A stretch of 64,000 nt of DNA. It comes from Yoonia sp. (GTDB lineage Bacteria > Pseudomonadota > Alphaproteobacteria > Rhodobacterales > Rhodobacteraceae). The stretch covers positions 186,001 through 250,000 of the forward strand of contig NZ_JAGYJK010000011.1 in assembly GCF_018402175.1 (NCBI RefSeq). Direction: 5' to 3'. Positions 55,270 to 63,164 of this stretch are shown here, in pieces. A program made the translations under genes and the position numbers. Below the pieces are notes generated by a model. The model worked only from the letters and a program-made list of their open reading frames with translations, did no database searches and was not told the origin of the DNA. Position 1 is the first letter of the stretch, and each line of letters begins with the position of its first letter.

Positions 55270-56310
55270 ATGATTCTATCCCCCGACCGCGTAGCGGCGA
55301 TTGCGACCGCCCGCGCCGACAAACCCAAAATGCGCGAACGCGATCTGGCCAATGTGCTGGGCATCCGCGAGGCCGAGATTCTGGCCGCCGAGCTTGGCCA
55401 TGGCGTGCGCCGGATCGCGGCAGACCCTGACCGGCTGTTGGCGCGCATCCCGGCGCTTGGCGATGTGATGGCGCTGACGCGCAACGATTTCTGCGTGCAT
55501 GAACGGCGCGGACAGTATCTTGACTATCGTTCAGGCGCCCATGCCGGCATGGTGCTGGGGCCGGATATCGACCTGCGCATTTTCCCCAGCCACTGGGTCC
55601 ATGGTTTCGCGGTGGACCGCAGCGGGCCAGATGGCACAAGACGCAGTTTGCAGGTGTTCGATGCCGCGGGCGATGCGGTCCACAAGATCTATCTGCAACC
55701 GGATTCGGACCTTGCGGCCTATGATGCGCTGGTCGCCGATCTGGCCGTGGCCGATGATGCGCCTTTCGATCTTGCGCCGCGCGCCTTGCCAGAGCCTATC
55801 CGCGTGAACGAAGCCAAGTTTGACGAATTGCGCAGCGCCTGGCCAAAGATGACCGATACCCACCAGTTCCTGGCCATGACCAGCCGGTTGAAATTCGACC
55901 GTCTGGGGGCCTATCTGTCGATCGGCGCGCCTTGGGCGGTGCCGCTGCCGGTCAATGCGGTCGAACAGGCGCTGCGGCAGGCCGGGGCGCAGGGCGTGCC
56001 GATCATGGTCTTTGTCGGCAATCGCGGCTGCATCCAGATCCATTCGGGGCCTGTTGCACGGCTGGAACCGATGGGGCCGTGGTTCAACGTGCTGGACCCG
56101 CATTTCAACCTGCATCTGCGCGCCGACAAGGTGGCGCAGGTCTGGTTGGTGCGCAAACCCACAAAACGCGGCGATGCGATCTCGGTCGAGGCGTTTGACA
56201 GGGACGGTCACCTGATCCTGCAGATTTTCGGCAAACGCGCCGAGGCCGCGACCGATACAGGTGCTTGGGATGCCATCGCCACAGGTTTGGCCGCAGAGGT
56301 GATGGCATGA
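55270..56310 (+). CDS. hmuS: Hemin-degrading factor HmuS
   Basis: 346 residues. The tandem structural repeats of the HemS/HmuS family are visible: MRERDLANVLGIREAEILAAELG and GPDIDLRIFPSHWVHGFAV in the first half, HQFLAMTSRLKFDRLGAYLSIG and VFVGNRGCIQIHSGPVARLEP in the second. It binds heme in the cytoplasm and helps release iron. The ATG at 55270 has GGAGG upstream. Confidence 0.94.
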   Translation: MILSPDRVAAIATARADKPKMRERDLANVLGIREAEILAAELGHGVRRIAADPDRLLARIPALGDVMALTRNDFCVHERRGQYLDYRSGAHAGMVLGPDIDLRIFPSHWVHGFAVDRSGPDGTRRSLQVFDAAGDAVHKIYLQPDSDLAAYDALVADLAVADDAPFDLAPRALPEPIRVNEAKFDELRSAWPKMTDTHQFLAMTSRLKFDRLGAYLSIGAPWAVPLPVNAVEQALRQAGAQGVPIMVFVGNRGCIQIHSGPVARLEPMGPWFNVLDPHFNLHLRADKVAQVWLVRKPTKRGDAISVEAFDRDGHLILQIFGKRAEAATDTGAWDAIATGLAAEVMA

Positions 56311-57167
56311 TCCGCCGGATTGCAGCCAGCCTTGCGGTGGCGGTGGCTTTTGCCCCCGCAGCCTTTGCCGAGACCCCGTCGCGCGTGATCGCGGCGGGCG
56401 GGTCTGTCGCGGAAATCATCCATGCTTTGGGGGCCGGTGACCGGCTGATCGCGCGCGATACCACGTCAACCTTTCCCCCCGCGGTCGCGGCCTTGCCCGA
56501 TATCGGCTATGTCCGCGCGCTGTCGGCGGAAAACCTGATCGCGATGGCCCCCGACATGGTGATCGCCGAACATGACGCTGGACCACCCGAAGTGCTGGAC
56601 GTGCTGCAACGGTCGGGCATTGCGCTGGTGACGGTGCCACAGGCGCTGGACCCTGACGGTGTCGCCGCCAAGATCGACGCGGTGGCCACGGCACTGGACC
56701 TGCCAGACGCCGGTGCCGCCCTGCAAGCCCGCGTGGCGGCGCAGCTGGAACAGGCACGGATCGCAGGCGACGGCTTGCCCCGGTCCCCGCGGGTGATGTT
56801 CATCCTGTCGATGCAGGGCGGCCGGTTGCTGGTTGGCGGCCAAGGCACCTCTGCCGAGGCGATGATCCTGCTGGCCGGTGGCACCAATGCGGTGACCGCG
56901 CTGGACGGCTATAAACCCCTGACCGACGAGGCCGCGATTGCCGCGAACCCCGATCTGATCCTGATGATGGACCGGGGCGGTGATCATGCCGTGGCTCTGG
57001 CCGATATCATCGCCCATCCGGCGCTGCGCCTGACCCGCGCGGCCATTGACCAGCGGGTCGTCAGCATGGACGGGCTTTATCTGCTGGGCTTTGGCCCGCG
57101 CACCGGCGATGCGGCGCTGGAACTGAACGCCCATCTGCGCCGCCTGACCGATGAGGTCAAAGGCTGA
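56307..57167 (+). CDS. hmuT: Heme ABC transporter substrate-binding protein HmuT
   Basis: 286 residues with signal peptide MIRRIAASLAVAVAFAPAAFA. A type III periplasmic binding fold: SRVIAAGGSVAEIIHALGAGDRLIARDTTS, then PDIGYVRALSAENLIAMAPDMVIAEHDAGP. It carries heme from the receptor to HmuUV. ATG overlaps the hmuS stop, and its stop overlaps hmuU (TGATG). Confidence 0.93.
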   Translation: MIRRIAASLAVAVAFAPAAFAETPSRVIAAGGSVAEIIHALGAGDRLIARDTTSTFPPAVAALPDIGYVRALSAENLIAMAPDMVIAEHDAGPPEVLDVLQRSGIALVTVPQALDPDGVAAKIDAVATALDLPDAGAALQARVAAQLEQARIAGDGLPRSPRVMFILSMQGGRLLVGGQGTSAEAMILLAGGTNAVTALDGYKPLTDEAAIAANPDLILMMDRGGDHAVALADIIAHPALRLTRAAIDQRVVSMDGLYLLGFGPRTGDAALELNAHLRRLTDEVKG

Positions 57168-58235
57168 TGGTCGCCCTTGCCGATACCCCCGTGCTGGCGG
57201 GCGACCGGTCGATCCGCGCGCGGCGGGTGGCCTTTGGGCTGGCGGGGCTTTTGCTGCTGACCGGTCTGCTGAGCCTGTCGCATGGCGCATCCGGCGTGCG
57301 GCTGGACCTTGTGCTGCAAAGCTGGCTGGCGGGACGAGGCTGTTCCCGCGCGCGACTGGCTGATCCTGTGGGAAATCCGGTTGCCACGGATGCTGACCGG
57401 CGTGCTGGTCGGGGCATCGCTGGCGGTGGGTGGTGCGGTGATGCAGGGGCTGTTTCGCAACCCTTTGGCCGATCCGGGGCTGGTCGGGGTTGGCGCGGGG
57501 GCCGGTCTGGGTGCTGTGCTGGCCATCGTGCTGGGCGGACAGGCGCCCGCATGGGTCGCCGCTTGGCTGGGCTGGAACATGGTGCCGGTTGCGGCCTTTA
57601 TCGGGGGCTGGCTGTCCACGATGGTGCTGTACCGCGTATCAACCCGCGCGGGGCGCACATCCACCGCGACGATGCTGCTGGCGGGGATCGCCCTTGGCGC
57701 GCTGGCAGGCGCGGCGACCGGTATTCTGGTCTATATCGCGGACGACCGGCAATTGCGCGACCTGACCTTTTGGGGTCTGGGGTCGCTGGGCGGCGCGTCA
57801 TGGCCCAAGATCGCGGCGGCAGGCCCCGTGATGCTGCTGGCGCTGCTGGCCGCACCGTTCCTTGCGCGCGGGCTGAACGGGCTGTCGCTGGGCGAGGCTG
57901 CGGCCCATCACATCGGGCTGCCGGTGCAAAGGGTCAAACATGTGGCCATTCTGACGGTCGCTGCGGCCACGGGGGCCGCTGTCGCGGTATCGGGCGGCAT
58001 CGGGTTTATCGGGATCGTGGTGCCGCATCTGCTGCGGCTGGCGACGGGGCCGGACCACCGCTATCTGCTGGTGAATGCGGCGCTTTTGGGGGCGACTTTG
58101 TTGTTGCTGGCCGATCTGATCGCGCGCAGCATCATCGCACCGGCCGAATTGCCCATCGGGATCGTGACGGCGGTGATCGGCGCGCCGGTGTTTTTGTGGA
58201 TCCTGCTGCGCCGCCGTGGATTGGTGGATCTGTGA
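57167..58235 (+). CDS. hmuU: Heme ABC transporter permease HmuU (frameshifted as read)
   Basis: FecCD-type permease. N-terminus VALADTPVLAGDRSIRARRV, then helices. One extra G in the run at 57331-57333 breaks the frame after VLQSWLA. Removing it gives DEAVPARDWLILWEIRLPRM and the family core LVGASLAVGGAVMQGLFRNPLADPGLVG. Corrected length is 355 residues. Its stop overlaps hmuV. Confidence 0.9.
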
Positions 58236-59023
58236 TGCTGACCCTACGTTCCTTGCACGCGTCTTTGGGGCGCACCGCTGTACTGCACGGGATCACTGCA
58301 AGTGCCGCCGCCGGCCGGATCGTCGCGGTGATCGGGCCGAACGGGTCGGGCAAGACCACGCTGTTGCGCGCCATTTCCGGCGATGTCGCCTATGACGGGC
58401 GGATCGCGCTGGACGGGGATGATCTGGCCCGCCTCAAACCATGGGAATTGGCCGCGCGGCGCGGGGTGTTGCCGCAGGCCGCAACGCTGGCCTTTCCCTT
58501 CACCGTGGCCGAGGTCGTGCGCCTTGGGCTGACATCGGGCACGCAGGCCGACCGGTCCGACCTGATCGGGCGGGCCTTGGCCGAGGTTGATCTGACCGGC
58601 TTTTCCGGGCGGTATTATCAGGAATTGTCAGGCGGCCAGCAGGCGCGGGTGCAACTGGCCCGCGTGCGCGCGCAGGTCTGGGAGCCTGTCGTGGCGGGCC
58701 GCCCCCGCTGGCTGTTTCTGGACGAACCGGTGGCGGCACTGGATATCGCGCATCAGATCGGCGTGATGCGGGTGCTGCGCCGCTTTGCCGATGCGGGGGG
58801 CGGGGTGGTGATCGTGCTGCATGACCTGAACCTTGCCGCGATGGTGGCCGATGATATCTGGCTGATCCATGACGGGTTGCTGCTGGATGCCGGATCGCCC
58901 GCGCGGGTGATCGGCGGGCCTGCCCTGGCCGAGGCTTATGGCTGTCCCATCGTGGCCAACCGCTTGCCCGGCCCGCAGGCGACCTTTGTGCTGCCGCATG
59001 GGCTCTGGGCGGCGGCGGGATAA
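58235..59023 (+). CDS. hmuV: Heme ABC transporter ATP-binding protein HmuV
   Basis: 262 residues. Walker A GPNGSGKTT, Q-loop region GVLPQAATLAFPF, signature LSGGQQARVQLARVRAQ, Walker B WLFLDEPVAALD and H-loop VLHDLN. ATG overlaps the hmuU stop (TGATG). End of the plus-strand heme operon, seven bases from the convergent SH3 lipoprotein gene. Confidence 0.94.
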   Translation: MLTLRSLHASLGRTAVLHGITASAAAGRIVAVIGPNGSGKTTLLRAISGDVAYDGRIALDGDDLARLKPWELAARRGVLPQAATLAFPFTVAEVVRLGLTSGTQADRSDLIGRALAEVDLTGFSGRYYQELSGGQQARVQLARVRAQVWEPVVAGRPRWLFLDEPVAALDIAHQIGVMRVLRRFADAGGGVVIVLHDLNLAAMVADDIWLIHDGLLLDAGSPARVIGGPALAEAYGCPIVANRLPGPQATFVLPHGLWAAAG

Positions 59024-59388: not shown

Positions 59389-60021
59389 TTACCAGCGCAG
59401 CACCCTTGGGCCGCAAATGGCACCGGCCAGCGCGACCGACAGGATCGCCGCCCCATAGGCGGGCAGCACGAAAAGCGCGGCATCCTGATCGCAATAAAAC
59501 GCATAGATGGCGGCCGACGCCCCGCCTGCCGCCAGCCCCGCCACTGCCCCCGCCAGCCGTGGGCGCAGCACCGCCCCTGTTGACAGCGACCACAGGATCG
59601 CCGCCAGAAACGGCAGGCCAAGCGCGGGCACGCTGGTCAGGCAGACCCAGAGGCTGGGGATCGCCACAGCCTCGACCAGCCCCGACAGCCCGCCGCGCTG
59701 CAACTGAAAGACAAAGGCTGCGACCAACATTCCCGCAAAGACCGCCAGCAGCGCCCAGCGCCTGCCCGCCATCACGCCCGGATGGGCCAAGGCAATAGCG
59801 ACGGCACCGGCCAGACCGGCCAGCAGCACAGGCAGGATCATTTTCAGCACGGCCAGCGACGCAAGCGCCGCCCCCAGATCGGCCCGCACCCCCCAAAAGG
59901 CGACAAAAGCCGCCACGCAGACCGCCAGCGCCACGGGCACCGACCGGACCAGCCTTTGCGCGATACCCGGTTGCGGCAACGTATCGGCGGCAAGCGCCGC
60001 GATGAGGTCGTCGGTGTTCAT
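59389..60021 (-). CDS. nrsF: NrsF-family (DUF1109) membrane anti-sigma factor
   Basis: 210 residues with six predicted membrane helices and a short cytoplasmic N-terminus (MNTDDLIAALAADTLPQP). Cysteines lie at 35, 127, 177 and 203. Cys127 and Cys177 have the 50-residue spacing I recall for the conserved pair of Caulobacter NrsF (remembered as positions 131 and 181, not checked). By family it holds the partner ECF sigma at the membrane and releases it on metal stress. It overlaps the sigma gene stop (ATGA). Confidence 0.85.
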   Translation of the reverse strand: MNTDDLIAALAADTLPQPGIAQRLVRSVPVALAVCVAAFVAFWGVRADLGAALASLAVLKMILPVLLAGLAGAVAIALAHPGVMAGRRWALLAVFAGMLVAAFVFQLQRGGLSGLVEAVAIPSLWVCLTSVPALGLPFLAAILWSLSTGAVLRPRLAGAVAGLAAGGASAAIYAFYCDQDAALFVLPAYGAAILSVALAGAICGPRVLRW

Positions 60022-60560
60022 TCGATCATCCTTTCGCGCAAGCGCGCCAGCGTCTGCAACGCGCGGTGCAGGGCCACGCGCACCGCCCCTTCGGTCATGC
60101 CCAGACGCGCCGCCGTCTCGGCCGTGGTTTCACCACGCAGACCAAAACCGCGCACGATATCGGCGGCCCGCGGATCAAGCGCGCCCAACAGCTTTTCCAT
60201 GTCGCGCCCTGCCAGCGGGTCAGGCCCCTGCGGTGCGGCCAGCGCATCTGCGAAATCGTCAATCGCCAGTTCGACGCGCCGGCCACGGGCGCGGAATGCA
60301 TCCACCACCTTGTGCCGCGCGATGGCATAAAGCCAGGGGCGCAGGGGCGCATCCTGCCGCCATGTATGGCGTTTGGTGTGGATCGCCAGCAGCACGTCCT
60401 GCAAGACATCCTCGCAGCTGTCCTGCCCCAGCCCGCCGCCCCGCGCCTGTACGACGCGGCGCAAAACAGGCGTGATCGCCTGCAACAATTGGCGGTAGGC
60501 CGCCGTATCGCCACCATTCGCTGCGCGCATCAGGTCATCCCAAGGGTCAATTATGTCCAA
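60018..60560 (-). CDS. sigF: ECF sigma factor, SigF-like, partner of NrsF
   Basis: About 180 residues. Region 2: DPWDDLMRAANGGDTAAYRQLLQAITPVLRRVV and DVLQDVLLAIHTKRHTWRQDAPLRPWLYAIARHKVVDAFR. Region 4: VRGFGLRGETTAETAARLGMTEGAVRVALHRALQTL. The start is unsure: TTG at 60560 gives the usual N-terminus, but its predicted promoter leaves only about seven bases of leader; the ATG at 60533 is the alternative. It faces bufA and probably drives both promoters. Confidence 0.88.
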   Translation of the reverse strand: MDIIDPWDDLMRAANGGDTAAYRQLLQAITPVLRRVVQARGGGLGQDSCEDVLQDVLLAIHTKRHTWRQDAPLRPWLYAIARHKVVDAFRARGRRVELAIDDFADALAAPQGPDPLAGRDMEKLLGALDPRAADIVRGFGLRGETTAETAARLGMTEGAVRVALHRALQTLARLRERMIE

Positions 60561-60573
60561 GTTCTGATCCCTG

Positions 60574-60599
60574 TTCGTCCCGCGTCGGGCAAATGTTAC
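60574..60599 (-). promoter_or_regulatory. Predicted SigF promoter for sigF-nrsF
   Basis: Minus strand GTAACA (60599-60594), 16 bases, CGAA (60577-60574). The same element with the same spacing appears on the plus strand before bufA, implying autoregulation. Confidence 0.65.
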
Positions 60600-60668
60600 A
60601 GCCACAACCCACGACTTGCCCAGAAACAAATGCGCTCGCCTTCAGCGGTTCACATGGGCGTGACCGGC

Positions 60669-60694
60669 GTAACACAAAGGCGCGGTGGCGCGAC
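60669..60694 (+). promoter_or_regulatory. Predicted SigF promoter for bufABCD
   Basis: Plus strand GTAACA (60669-60674), 16 bases, CGAC (60691-60694), 50 bases before the bufA ATG. It is close to the GTAACC-N16-CGAA element I recall for Caulobacter SigF (from memory). Confidence 0.65.
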
Positions 60695-60743
60695 CTGCTT
60701 TGCGGGACTGCACTGACGCAGCCCGCCACTAGGAGTGACCTTC

Positions 60744-61055
60744 ATGACGACCAAAACGCTTTCGCTTACTCTTGCCGCTTCGCTGGCTTCTGCGCTGACC
60801 CTGTCCGCCGGGCAGATGCATGCACAAGAGGCCACGATGGAAAAATGTTTCGGCATTTCGCTGGCCGGTGCCAATGATTGCGCCGCCGGTCCCGGCACCA
60901 CCTGCGCCGGCACATCCACCGTCGATTACCAGGGCAATGCCTGGACGCTGGTCGCCACCGGCACCTGCACCGAGATCGATCTGCCAGCCATGGCCGACGG
61001 CTCTGCGCGCATGGGTGCGCTGGAAGAACTGGACCGCGATCTGCCCCCTGCATGA
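60744..61055 (+). CDS. bufA: Bufferin precursor BufA (DUF2282 family metallophore peptide)
   Basis: 103 residues. Signal peptide [20 protein letters not shown] to about residue 28, then a core with four cysteines: Cys35, Cys46, Cys54 and Cys75, in the DUF2282 pattern KCFG...NDCAAG...CAG...GNAW...GTC. Bufferins are exported peptides whose core cysteines are oxidised to thiooxazoles by BufB and then bind copper. This one has an acidic extension (84-103) after the last cysteine. The ATG at 60744 follows AGGAG; a GTG three codons upstream is less likely. Confidence 0.88.
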
Positions 61056-61067
61056 TCTGACCCCAAG

Positions 61068-61088
61068 GGGCGGGGGTATCCCCCGCCC
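61068..61088 (+). promoter_or_regulatory. Hairpin between bufA and bufB
   Basis: GGGCGGGGG, loop TAT, CCCCCGCCC, 12 bases after the bufA stop and 21 before bufB. No U-tract. Likely protects bufA mRNA or limits bufB, so that peptide exceeds enzyme. Confidence 0.6.
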
Positions 61089-61109
61089 TCTCTCCAAAAG
61101 GATTTTGCT

Positions 61110-61958
61110 ATGCCCGCACTTCCCCGCACGACCGGTCTGGGTTTCAAGCCACAGCATTTCACCGATATGATGGCCACCGACACCATCGGGTTCATCGAGG
61201 TCCATGCCGAGAATTACATGGGCGATGGCGGCGCGCCGCATGCGATGCTGGCGGCTTTGCATGACCGCCATGCCCTGTCGATCCACGGGGTCGGCCTGTC
61301 GATCGGCAGCGCGGGCGGGCTGGACCACGACCACCTTGCGCGGCTGCGCAAACTGATCGACCGCTACCAACCCGAAAGCTTTTCCGAACATCTGGCCTGG
61401 TCCAGCCATGGGGCGGCCTGGCTGAATGATCTTTTGCCCCTGCCCTATACGCCCGAGACTTTGGCCACGATCTGCGCCCATGTCGATCAGGTGCAAGATA
61501 CCTTGGGCCGCCGGATGCTGTTGGAAAATCCCGCGACCTATGTGACCTTTGCCAGTTCCACCCTGTCGGAAACCGATTTTTTGACCGAACTTGTCCAGCG
61601 CACGGGCTGTGGGCTGCTGCTCGATATCAACAATGTCTTTGTCTCTGCCACCAACCACCGGTTCGATGCCCGTGCCTATCTGGCCGATTTCCCGCTGTTT
61701 GCTGTGGGTGAAATCCATCTGGCGGGGCATGACACCGAAGATTTGCCATCCGGTCCGCTGCTGATCGACAGCCATGGCGCGCCGGTGGCGGACCCTGTCT
61801 GGGCGCTTTATACGCAGGTGCTGGCGCGCACCGGTCCTTTGCCCACGCTGATCGAATGGGACACTGATGTGCCCGATTTCGCCACCCTGCTGGCCGAGGC
61901 TGCCCGCGCAAACGCCATCCTGCACGCCGCAGAAGGGCAGCAGACCGATGCAGCCTGA
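61110..61958 (+). CDS. bufB: BufB, DUF692 multinuclear non-heme iron oxidase
   Basis: 282 residues, TIM-barrel MNIO enzyme that modifies BufA cysteines. Candidate iron ligands are Glu34 (HAENY), His59 (SIHG), Glu93 and His94 (SEHLAW), Glu139 (LLENPATY), Asp172 and Asn174-175 (LDINNVF), His203 and His207 (EIHLAGH), and Glu249 with Asp251 ([10 protein letters not shown]). The family strings are complete, so the enzyme should be active. AAAAGG precedes the ATG. It overlaps bufC by 11 bases. Confidence 0.92.
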
Positions 61959-62694
61959 CAGCCACGCTGCCCAGCAACAGGCGTTTGAAGCCGCGCTTTG
62001 GCAGCAAGACCCGCCCGCCGGGCTGCGCGCGCCGGTGATGGCAGAGGTCGCACAGCGGTTTGCCGTTTACCGCAACAATGTGCAGCACAGCCTGACCCGC
62101 GCGCTGGCGGCGCGGTTTGCGGTTGTGGAACAATTGGTCGGCCCCACGTTTTTTACCGCGATGGCGCGGGTCCATATCGCGCAAGACCCACCGCAAAGCC
62201 CGGTTTTGCTGGGCTGGGGTGCGACATTCGCGGATTTTCTGGATGGTTTCGCCCCGGTGGCGCATCTGCCGTTTCTGGGCGATGTGGCGCGGCTGGAATA
62301 TGCGCGCGGTCGGGCCTATCACGCCGCCGATGCGGCGCCGGTCGCAGCCGATGCGCTGGCCGTGGCGGACCCCGCGACGCTGCGGCTGGGTCTGCACCCG
62401 TCGGTGCAGCTGTTCACATCGCCGCACCCGGCGCTGCAAATCTGGCAAGCGCATCAGACAGGGGCCACCCGCCGCCCGCTGCGTGCCGGGCCCGACCATG
62501 CGCTGATCGGGCGCGCGCCGGATTTCAGCATCGTGACGGCCCCGCTGGACCAAGACACATATACCGTGCTGCGCGCTTTGGCGGCTGGCGACAGGCTGGG
62601 TGACGCCACAACCCATGCAGACCCGACCGCCGCCCTGACGCTGCTGTTGCGCCACGGGCTGATCACAACAATAGATACAGGAGTTTCCCCATGA
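61948..62694 (+). CDS. bufC: BufC, DUF2063 partner protein
   Basis: 248 residues. The N-terminal DUF2063 domain has [31 protein letters not shown] and [31 protein letters not shown], followed by a C-terminal beta-type domain that in this family resembles a RiPP recognition element. It should bind the BufA leader and present it to BufB. Overlaps both neighbours. Confidence 0.88.
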
Positions 62695-63164
62695 CCCCCA
62701 CCATAGACCTGCGCGACCGGATCGGGCAGATCAACAGGCTTGCCGATCATCTGCCCCATGATGTCGTGGCCTTGGCCGCGCGGATTTTTCCGGCGGTCGT
62801 GTTCTGGCAATCGGCGCGCACCAAGGTTGATGGGCTTACGATCAAGGATTCCACCTATTTCCTGTTCGAACAGGTCTATGCCCTGCCCCTGATCCCCCCC
62901 GCAATCGCCGCCCAGCTTGCGACAGTGGCCGAACATCTGCTGCCGGTCCTGCTGGTGCTTGGCCTGTTTGCGAGGGTTGGCGCGCTGGGGCTGCTGGGCA
63001 TGACAGCCGTGATCCAGATCTTCGTGTTTCCAGAGGCTTGGGTGACCCATGGGCTTTGGGCCACGGCGCTGCTGGTGGTACTGGCGCAAGGGCCGGGGCG
63101 GGTGTCGCTGGATCACTTGCTGGGGCTGGATCACAGCGGCACGCGGCACAAACGGCTGCCCTAA
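62691..63164 (+). CDS. bufD: BufD, DoxX-family membrane protein
   Basis: 157 residues, four membrane helices. [20 protein letters not shown] and [40 protein letters not shown] are DoxX-like. It usually closes bufferin operons; function unknown. Its ATG overlaps the bufC stop (ATGA). Confidence 0.88.

Follow-up and report, generated by a model that had tools for sequence, protein, structure and literature searches.

Gene content of the locus

A 64,000-nucleotide stretch of a Yoonia sp. genome (Rhodobacteraceae; contig NZ_JAGYJK010000011.1, positions 186,001–250,000; hereafter the window) carries a putative bufferin biosynthesis cluster, bufABCD, next to a sigma/anti-sigma factor pair, sigF-nrsF. 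Genes were called from open reading frames and from Pfam and NCBIfam profile searches of the window proteins. The four buf genes form a tight plus-strand operon (60744–63164), divergent from sigF-nrsF on the minus strand (60560 down to 59389). The predicted bufferin precursor is encoded by bufA (60744–61055), a DUF2282 protein (PF10048, E 1.6e-23, 82.8 bits against a cut-off of 22.4), and the MNIO maturase by bufB (61110–61958), which matches both PF05114 (MbnB_TglH_ChrH; 355.9 bits, E 1.5e-106) and NF050167 (MNIO_BufB; 385.3 against 310). They are followed by bufC (61948–62694), for a DUF2063 partner protein (PF09836, E 1.1e-23), and bufD (62691–63164), for a DoxX-family membrane protein (PF07681, E 1.4e-15). 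On the opposite strand, sigF (60018–60560) encodes an extracytoplasmic function (ECF) sigma factor with Pfam Sigma70_r2 and r4_2 domains (NF009165, 213.8 bits against a cut-off of 198), presumably started by the TTG at 60560, and nrsF (59389–60021) a membrane anti-sigma factor (PF06532, Pfam 124.2 bits). The overlaps of nrsF/sigF (4 bases), bufB/bufC (11 bases) and bufC/bufD (4 bases) are as expected for operons. Searches of the window for tRNA genes and for Rfam families at the gathering threshold gave no match.

An earlier note on this DNA had described bufABCD as a single plus-strand operon facing sigF-nrsF, with BufC as a DUF2063 protein, BufD as a DoxX protein and a sigma/anti-sigma pair of its own. 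The reading frames and the Pfam matches to six families bear this out, BufC and BufD both scoring above their Pfam cut-offs and the pair being identified by its Sigma70_r2/r4 and NrsF matches; sigma-F-type promoter sites lie on both sides. The bounds given there (60018–63164) hold for five of the genes and leave out nrsF, although the same claim names it.

The BufA precursor and the BufB maturase

Relatives were taken from a scan of named genomes, from which the best 80 of at least 549 confirmed stretches were kept, so the set leans toward close relatives. BufA contains exactly four cysteines, as the earlier note had read it, and these are nearly invariant: Cys35, Cys46 and Cys54 are kept in 80/80 aligned rows and Cys75 in 78/80 (the window and, of the 80 named loci, all but L059, which has no BufA match). 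By eye, its N terminus looks signal-like, with Lys, a hydrophobic stretch and QMHA-QE, where Ala27 is present in 79/80 rows. Buf1 bufferins are described as having the two central Cys modified and the outer two joined in a disulfide (PMC12452194).

The iron ligands published for TglH are His71, His107, Glu151, Asp184, Asn187, His216, Asp229, His231 and Glu258 (PMC10880893). Seven of them map to BufB Glu139, Asp172, Asn175, His203, Asp220, His222 and Glu249. These were counted along the alignment to structure 8hci, which we take to be TglH (the entry title reads 'DUF692 family protein'). The remaining two probably correspond to His59 and His94, as placed through the 3bww alignment. All nine mapped positions are invariant in 81/81 rows, which were picked by their likeness to BufB. 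Together with the NF050167 score, this agrees with the earlier description of BufB as a DUF692 oxidase with complete candidate ligands. BufB lies far under the cut-off of the MbnB model (50.4 bits against 325), which speaks against a methanobactin MbnB system. For Fontimonas, Haemophilus and Neisseria, MNIO enzymes working with a PME1 (DUF2063-type) partner were shown to yield 5-thiooxazoles, and oxazolin has been reassigned to these (PMC12668002); in related systems, MNIO enzymes with such partners likewise form 5-thiooxazoles (PMC12668002, PMC13419390). A mass change of -4 Da for each modified Cys has been reported for this group (PMC13419390).

Paired divergent candidate promoters between sigF and bufA

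In Caulobacter, the sigma-F site was published as GTAACC-N16-CGAA and was searched for with up to two substitutions (PMC3511200). Candidate sigma-F promoters close to this consensus lie upstream of both sigF (GTAACA-N16-CGAA, 60599–60574, minus strand) and bufA (GTAACA-N16-CGAC, 60669–60694, plus strand). They are the only two matches to GTAACM-N16-CGAM in the 64-kb window, and both sit in the sigF/bufA gap, facing outward. Only 0.12 matches were expected and 1/100 shuffles had at least two, for a pattern whose degenerate letters were picked after both sites had been seen.

Both sites recur in relatives. A sigF match is found on the opposite strand at most 1500 bases upstream of bufA in 60/80 named related loci, giving with the window 61 divergent gaps. 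On the bufA side, 51/61 of these gaps carry GTAAC-N17-CG[AT], and on the sigF side 48/61 do, against a shuffle mean of 0.1 (20 shuffles). Other spacings (13–16 and 18–21) are seen in 0–2 gaps, except for 12 with N16 on the sigF side. With a stricter -10 element (GTAAC-N17-CGA[AC]) the counts are 36 on the bufA side and 29 on the sigF side.

BufA was matched in 109 of the loci L009–L118, and in these the site also follows the presence of sigF. GTAAC-N17-CG[AT] is found upstream of bufA in 51/68 loci having a sigF match within 1500 bases, in 6/9 loci whose sigF match is more than 1500 bases off (for L029 and L035 among these nine, the match is only 30% identical and may be another sigma factor), and in 1/32 loci without a sigF match in the locus.

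Twenty-two loci from genomes of the same family (L093–L096, L100–L104 and L106–L118) have no sigF match in the surrounding ∼3 kb, and their bufA genes lack a sigma-F-type site. Twenty of them come from genomes without any NrsF match; G135 combines a sigF-less locus with a clear NrsF elsewhere in the genome, and G129 has a weak NrsF match under the cut-off. In the 32 sigF-less loci, the 600 bases before bufA contain TGTAACA in 26 forward copies, spread over 15 loci (L031, L045, L082, L094, L102–L104, L107, L111, L113–L118), and in 8 reverse copies in 7 loci. The forward copies greatly exceed the density elsewhere along these loci (0.006 per 600 bases). We considered TGTAACA as an alternative bufA promoter and do not propose it as one: at none of the fixed spacings was a -10 partner conspicuous, and several of the copies, judged by eye, fall within an apparent conserved upstream coding sequence or on its stop codon and may be non-regulatory.

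Relatives and distribution

The genome is a draft of 3.0 Mb in 18 contigs (99.71% complete), in which DUF2282, MNIO and NrsF are each matched once. Yoonia vestfoldensis SKA53 (L009) is the nearest named relative among the best 80 loci, and its BufB is 95% identical. The two loci share gene order, with six proteins 90–97% identical, and also their flanks, an ABC-transporter ATPase upstream and a methyltransferase downstream; matching of the window proteins revealed no difference in gene content. The profile scores and the conserved gene order in relatives exclude a chance assembly of the locus.

DUF2282 was found in 106/149 sampled genomes of the family. In the 30 genomes whose DUF2282 loci score highest, NrsF was matched in ten, nine of them above the cut-off, and had no match in the remaining 20/30; this sample was selected by DUF2282 score instead of at random and includes incomplete genomes.

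Just beyond nrsF, the plus strand of the window (56265–59023) encodes a FecCD permease, an ABC ATPase and a frame resembling a periplasmic binding protein (the last by eye), genes that are presumably of the heme/siderophore-uptake type. The ATPase has a 97% match in the same place in SKA53, and eight others among 110 loci are 26–34% identical.

Comparison with known systems

Caulobacter vibrioides/crescentus has the best described counterpart. By published description its CC3252–CC3257 region shares all six gene families with the window locus, including sigF and nrsF, and CC3254–CC3257 is a sigma-F-dependent DUF2282-DUF692-DUF2063-DoxX operon beside sigF-nrsF (PMC3511200). Both loci have GTAAC-N17-CGA-type promoters and two conserved NrsF cysteines. 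In our alignment these are Cys127 (61/64 NrsF rows) and Cys177 (64/64), which stand 50 residues apart, as do C131 and C181 in the Caulobacter protein (PMC3511200). Caulobacter differs in having a second sigma-F-controlled DUF2282-DUF692-DUF2063 operon and a sulfoxide reductase, whereas the window genome has one DUF2282 and one MNIO. Copper induced CC3254–CC3257 in each of two media and two cell types, although two of the induction values pass only without the fold-change cut-off, and disruption of sigF made the cells copper-sensitive, with severely impaired growth in the presence of the metal (PMC8224329).

The gold-induced genes (gig) of Cupriavidus metallidurans and the Legionella GIG operon are described in print as the same, metal-responsive cluster (PMC8224329, PMC5413113), gig being induced by gold, silver and copper (PMC8224329). 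A survey from 2025 lists sigma factor and NrsF genes as frequent MNIO neighbours, in Buf1 and not in Buf2 clusters (PMC12452194).

Other candidate sigma-F sites in the genome

GTAAC-N17-CGA[AC] has 22 matches genome-wide, two of them at the sigF/bufA locus, and the pattern read backwards has 106; the motif is thus not over-represented in the genome. A looser and longer TGTAAC pattern gave 6 matches against 44 read backwards. Both promoter sites at the locus overlap a 216-aa frame, so that a filter on overlap with open reading frames (at least 200 aa) was unusable because it would have removed them too. The non-locus matches were instead judged by Pfam support of the overlapping frame, with 30 frames scanned, which for some matches took in fewer than both of the two longest overlapping frames. 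Fourteen of the 20 lie inside a Pfam-supported frame (in L124 and L140 within the gene, outside the matched domain). The other six have no such frame among those scanned (L120, L123, L127, L129, L134 and L136) and could be sigma-F targets. Three of them lie just in front of a Pfam-supported gene: L120 adjoins a FolB gene, L129 is upstream of a response regulator and L134 upstream of an RsmI-type methylase.

No GTAA-N18-CGW site was present in the 3465 bases around the single Oxidored_molyb gene of the genome (contig C12, 3009–3473, L141), a member of the family of the sigma-F-controlled Caulobacter sulfoxide reductase CC2748 (PMC3511200). It is possible, but on balance doubtful, that the sigma-F regulon here comprises just its own operon and the single bufferin operon, a minimal metal-stress circuit with one target and one ribosomally synthesized and post-translationally modified peptide (RiPP). 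Such a regulon would be narrower than that of Caulobacter sigma-F.

Proposed function and alternative explanations

The gene content, gene order, conserved residues and promoter-like sites observed here very probably represent a complete bufferin cluster of the Buf1 type, controlled by a sigma-F/NrsF switch of its own. The earlier reading of the locus as a complete bufferin-type system with its own regulator is thereby supported at the level of sequence, and homology suggests the metal and the chemistry. By analogy with the homologues, which are also the basis for the proposed modification, metal, export and sensing, metal stress, probably from copper, would be sensed at the membrane by NrsF. 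Its pair of conserved cysteines should lie on the periplasmic side, and sensing would free SigF to transcribe its own operon and bufABCD from the paired divergent promoters. BufB and BufC would then oxidise the central Cys46 and Cys54 of BufA to 5-thiooxazoles before Sec export, with Cys35 and Cys75 pairing as a disulfide. The exported peptide may tie up excess periplasmic copper, and BufD is likely to be an accessory membrane protein.

Several points weigh against this interpretation. BufC, BufD and NrsF exceed their Pfam cut-offs and fall short of the curated NCBIfam ones: bufC falls under the cut-off of NF050145 HvfC (E 5.3e-10), bufD under that of NF050144 HvfX (E 8.6e-13), and NrsF under that of the NrsF equivalog model (75.6 against 300). 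The promoter sites deviate from the Caulobacter consensus at 2/10 positions on the bufA side and 1/10 on the sigF side, and the narrowest motif, GTAAC[AC]-N16-CGA[ACT], is found in only 13/61 and 10/61 gaps, respectively, and on both sides in 4. The relatives share descent and were fetched by their BufB likeness, so conserved positions and promoter sites cannot be tallied as independent occurrences. The case for Yoonia is built on sequence and published homologues, and in C. metallidurans gig is reported to have no effect on copper resistance, which other copper genes may mask (PMC8224329).

The most serious alternative, unlikely in our judgement, keeps the bufferin chemistry and replaces copper as the main signal or metal by cadmium, chromate, silver, gold or a general thiol stress acting through the NrsF cysteines. 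Caulobacter sigma-F does respond to chromium and cadmium (PMC3511200), and the response of gig to gold and silver points the same way; against this stand the severe growth defect on copper after sigF inactivation in Caulobacter and the report that, toward chromate and cadmium, a sigF mutant has a similar sensitivity profile (PMC8224329). It is far less probable that the peptide carries a methanobactin-like oxazolone/thioamide instead of a 5-thiooxazole: BufB does match the MbnB model, if weakly, but its best curated match is the bufferin maturase NF050167, and the PME1-partnered homologues from Fontimonas, Haemophilus and Neisseria argue for 5-thiooxazoles (PMC12668002). Least probable of all, and barely credible, is that the cluster has decayed or fallen silent and persists by chance: all frames are open, genes overlap, the catalytic and Cys positions and promoter-like sites are intact, and both the gene order and the high identity of the six proteins are kept in SKA53.

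The locus is an ordinary, well-conserved bufferin cluster whose peptide probably binds copper. The Caulobacter gene order and regulation and the survey of Buf1 clusters are already in print, and the arrangement is common. By itself the locus settles no open question. For the Rhodobacteraceae it provides a clean example of a bufferin cluster present in single copy together with its switch. Caulobacter has two clusters, and the single DUF2282 and MNIO matched in this draft genome would make it the simpler system to test.

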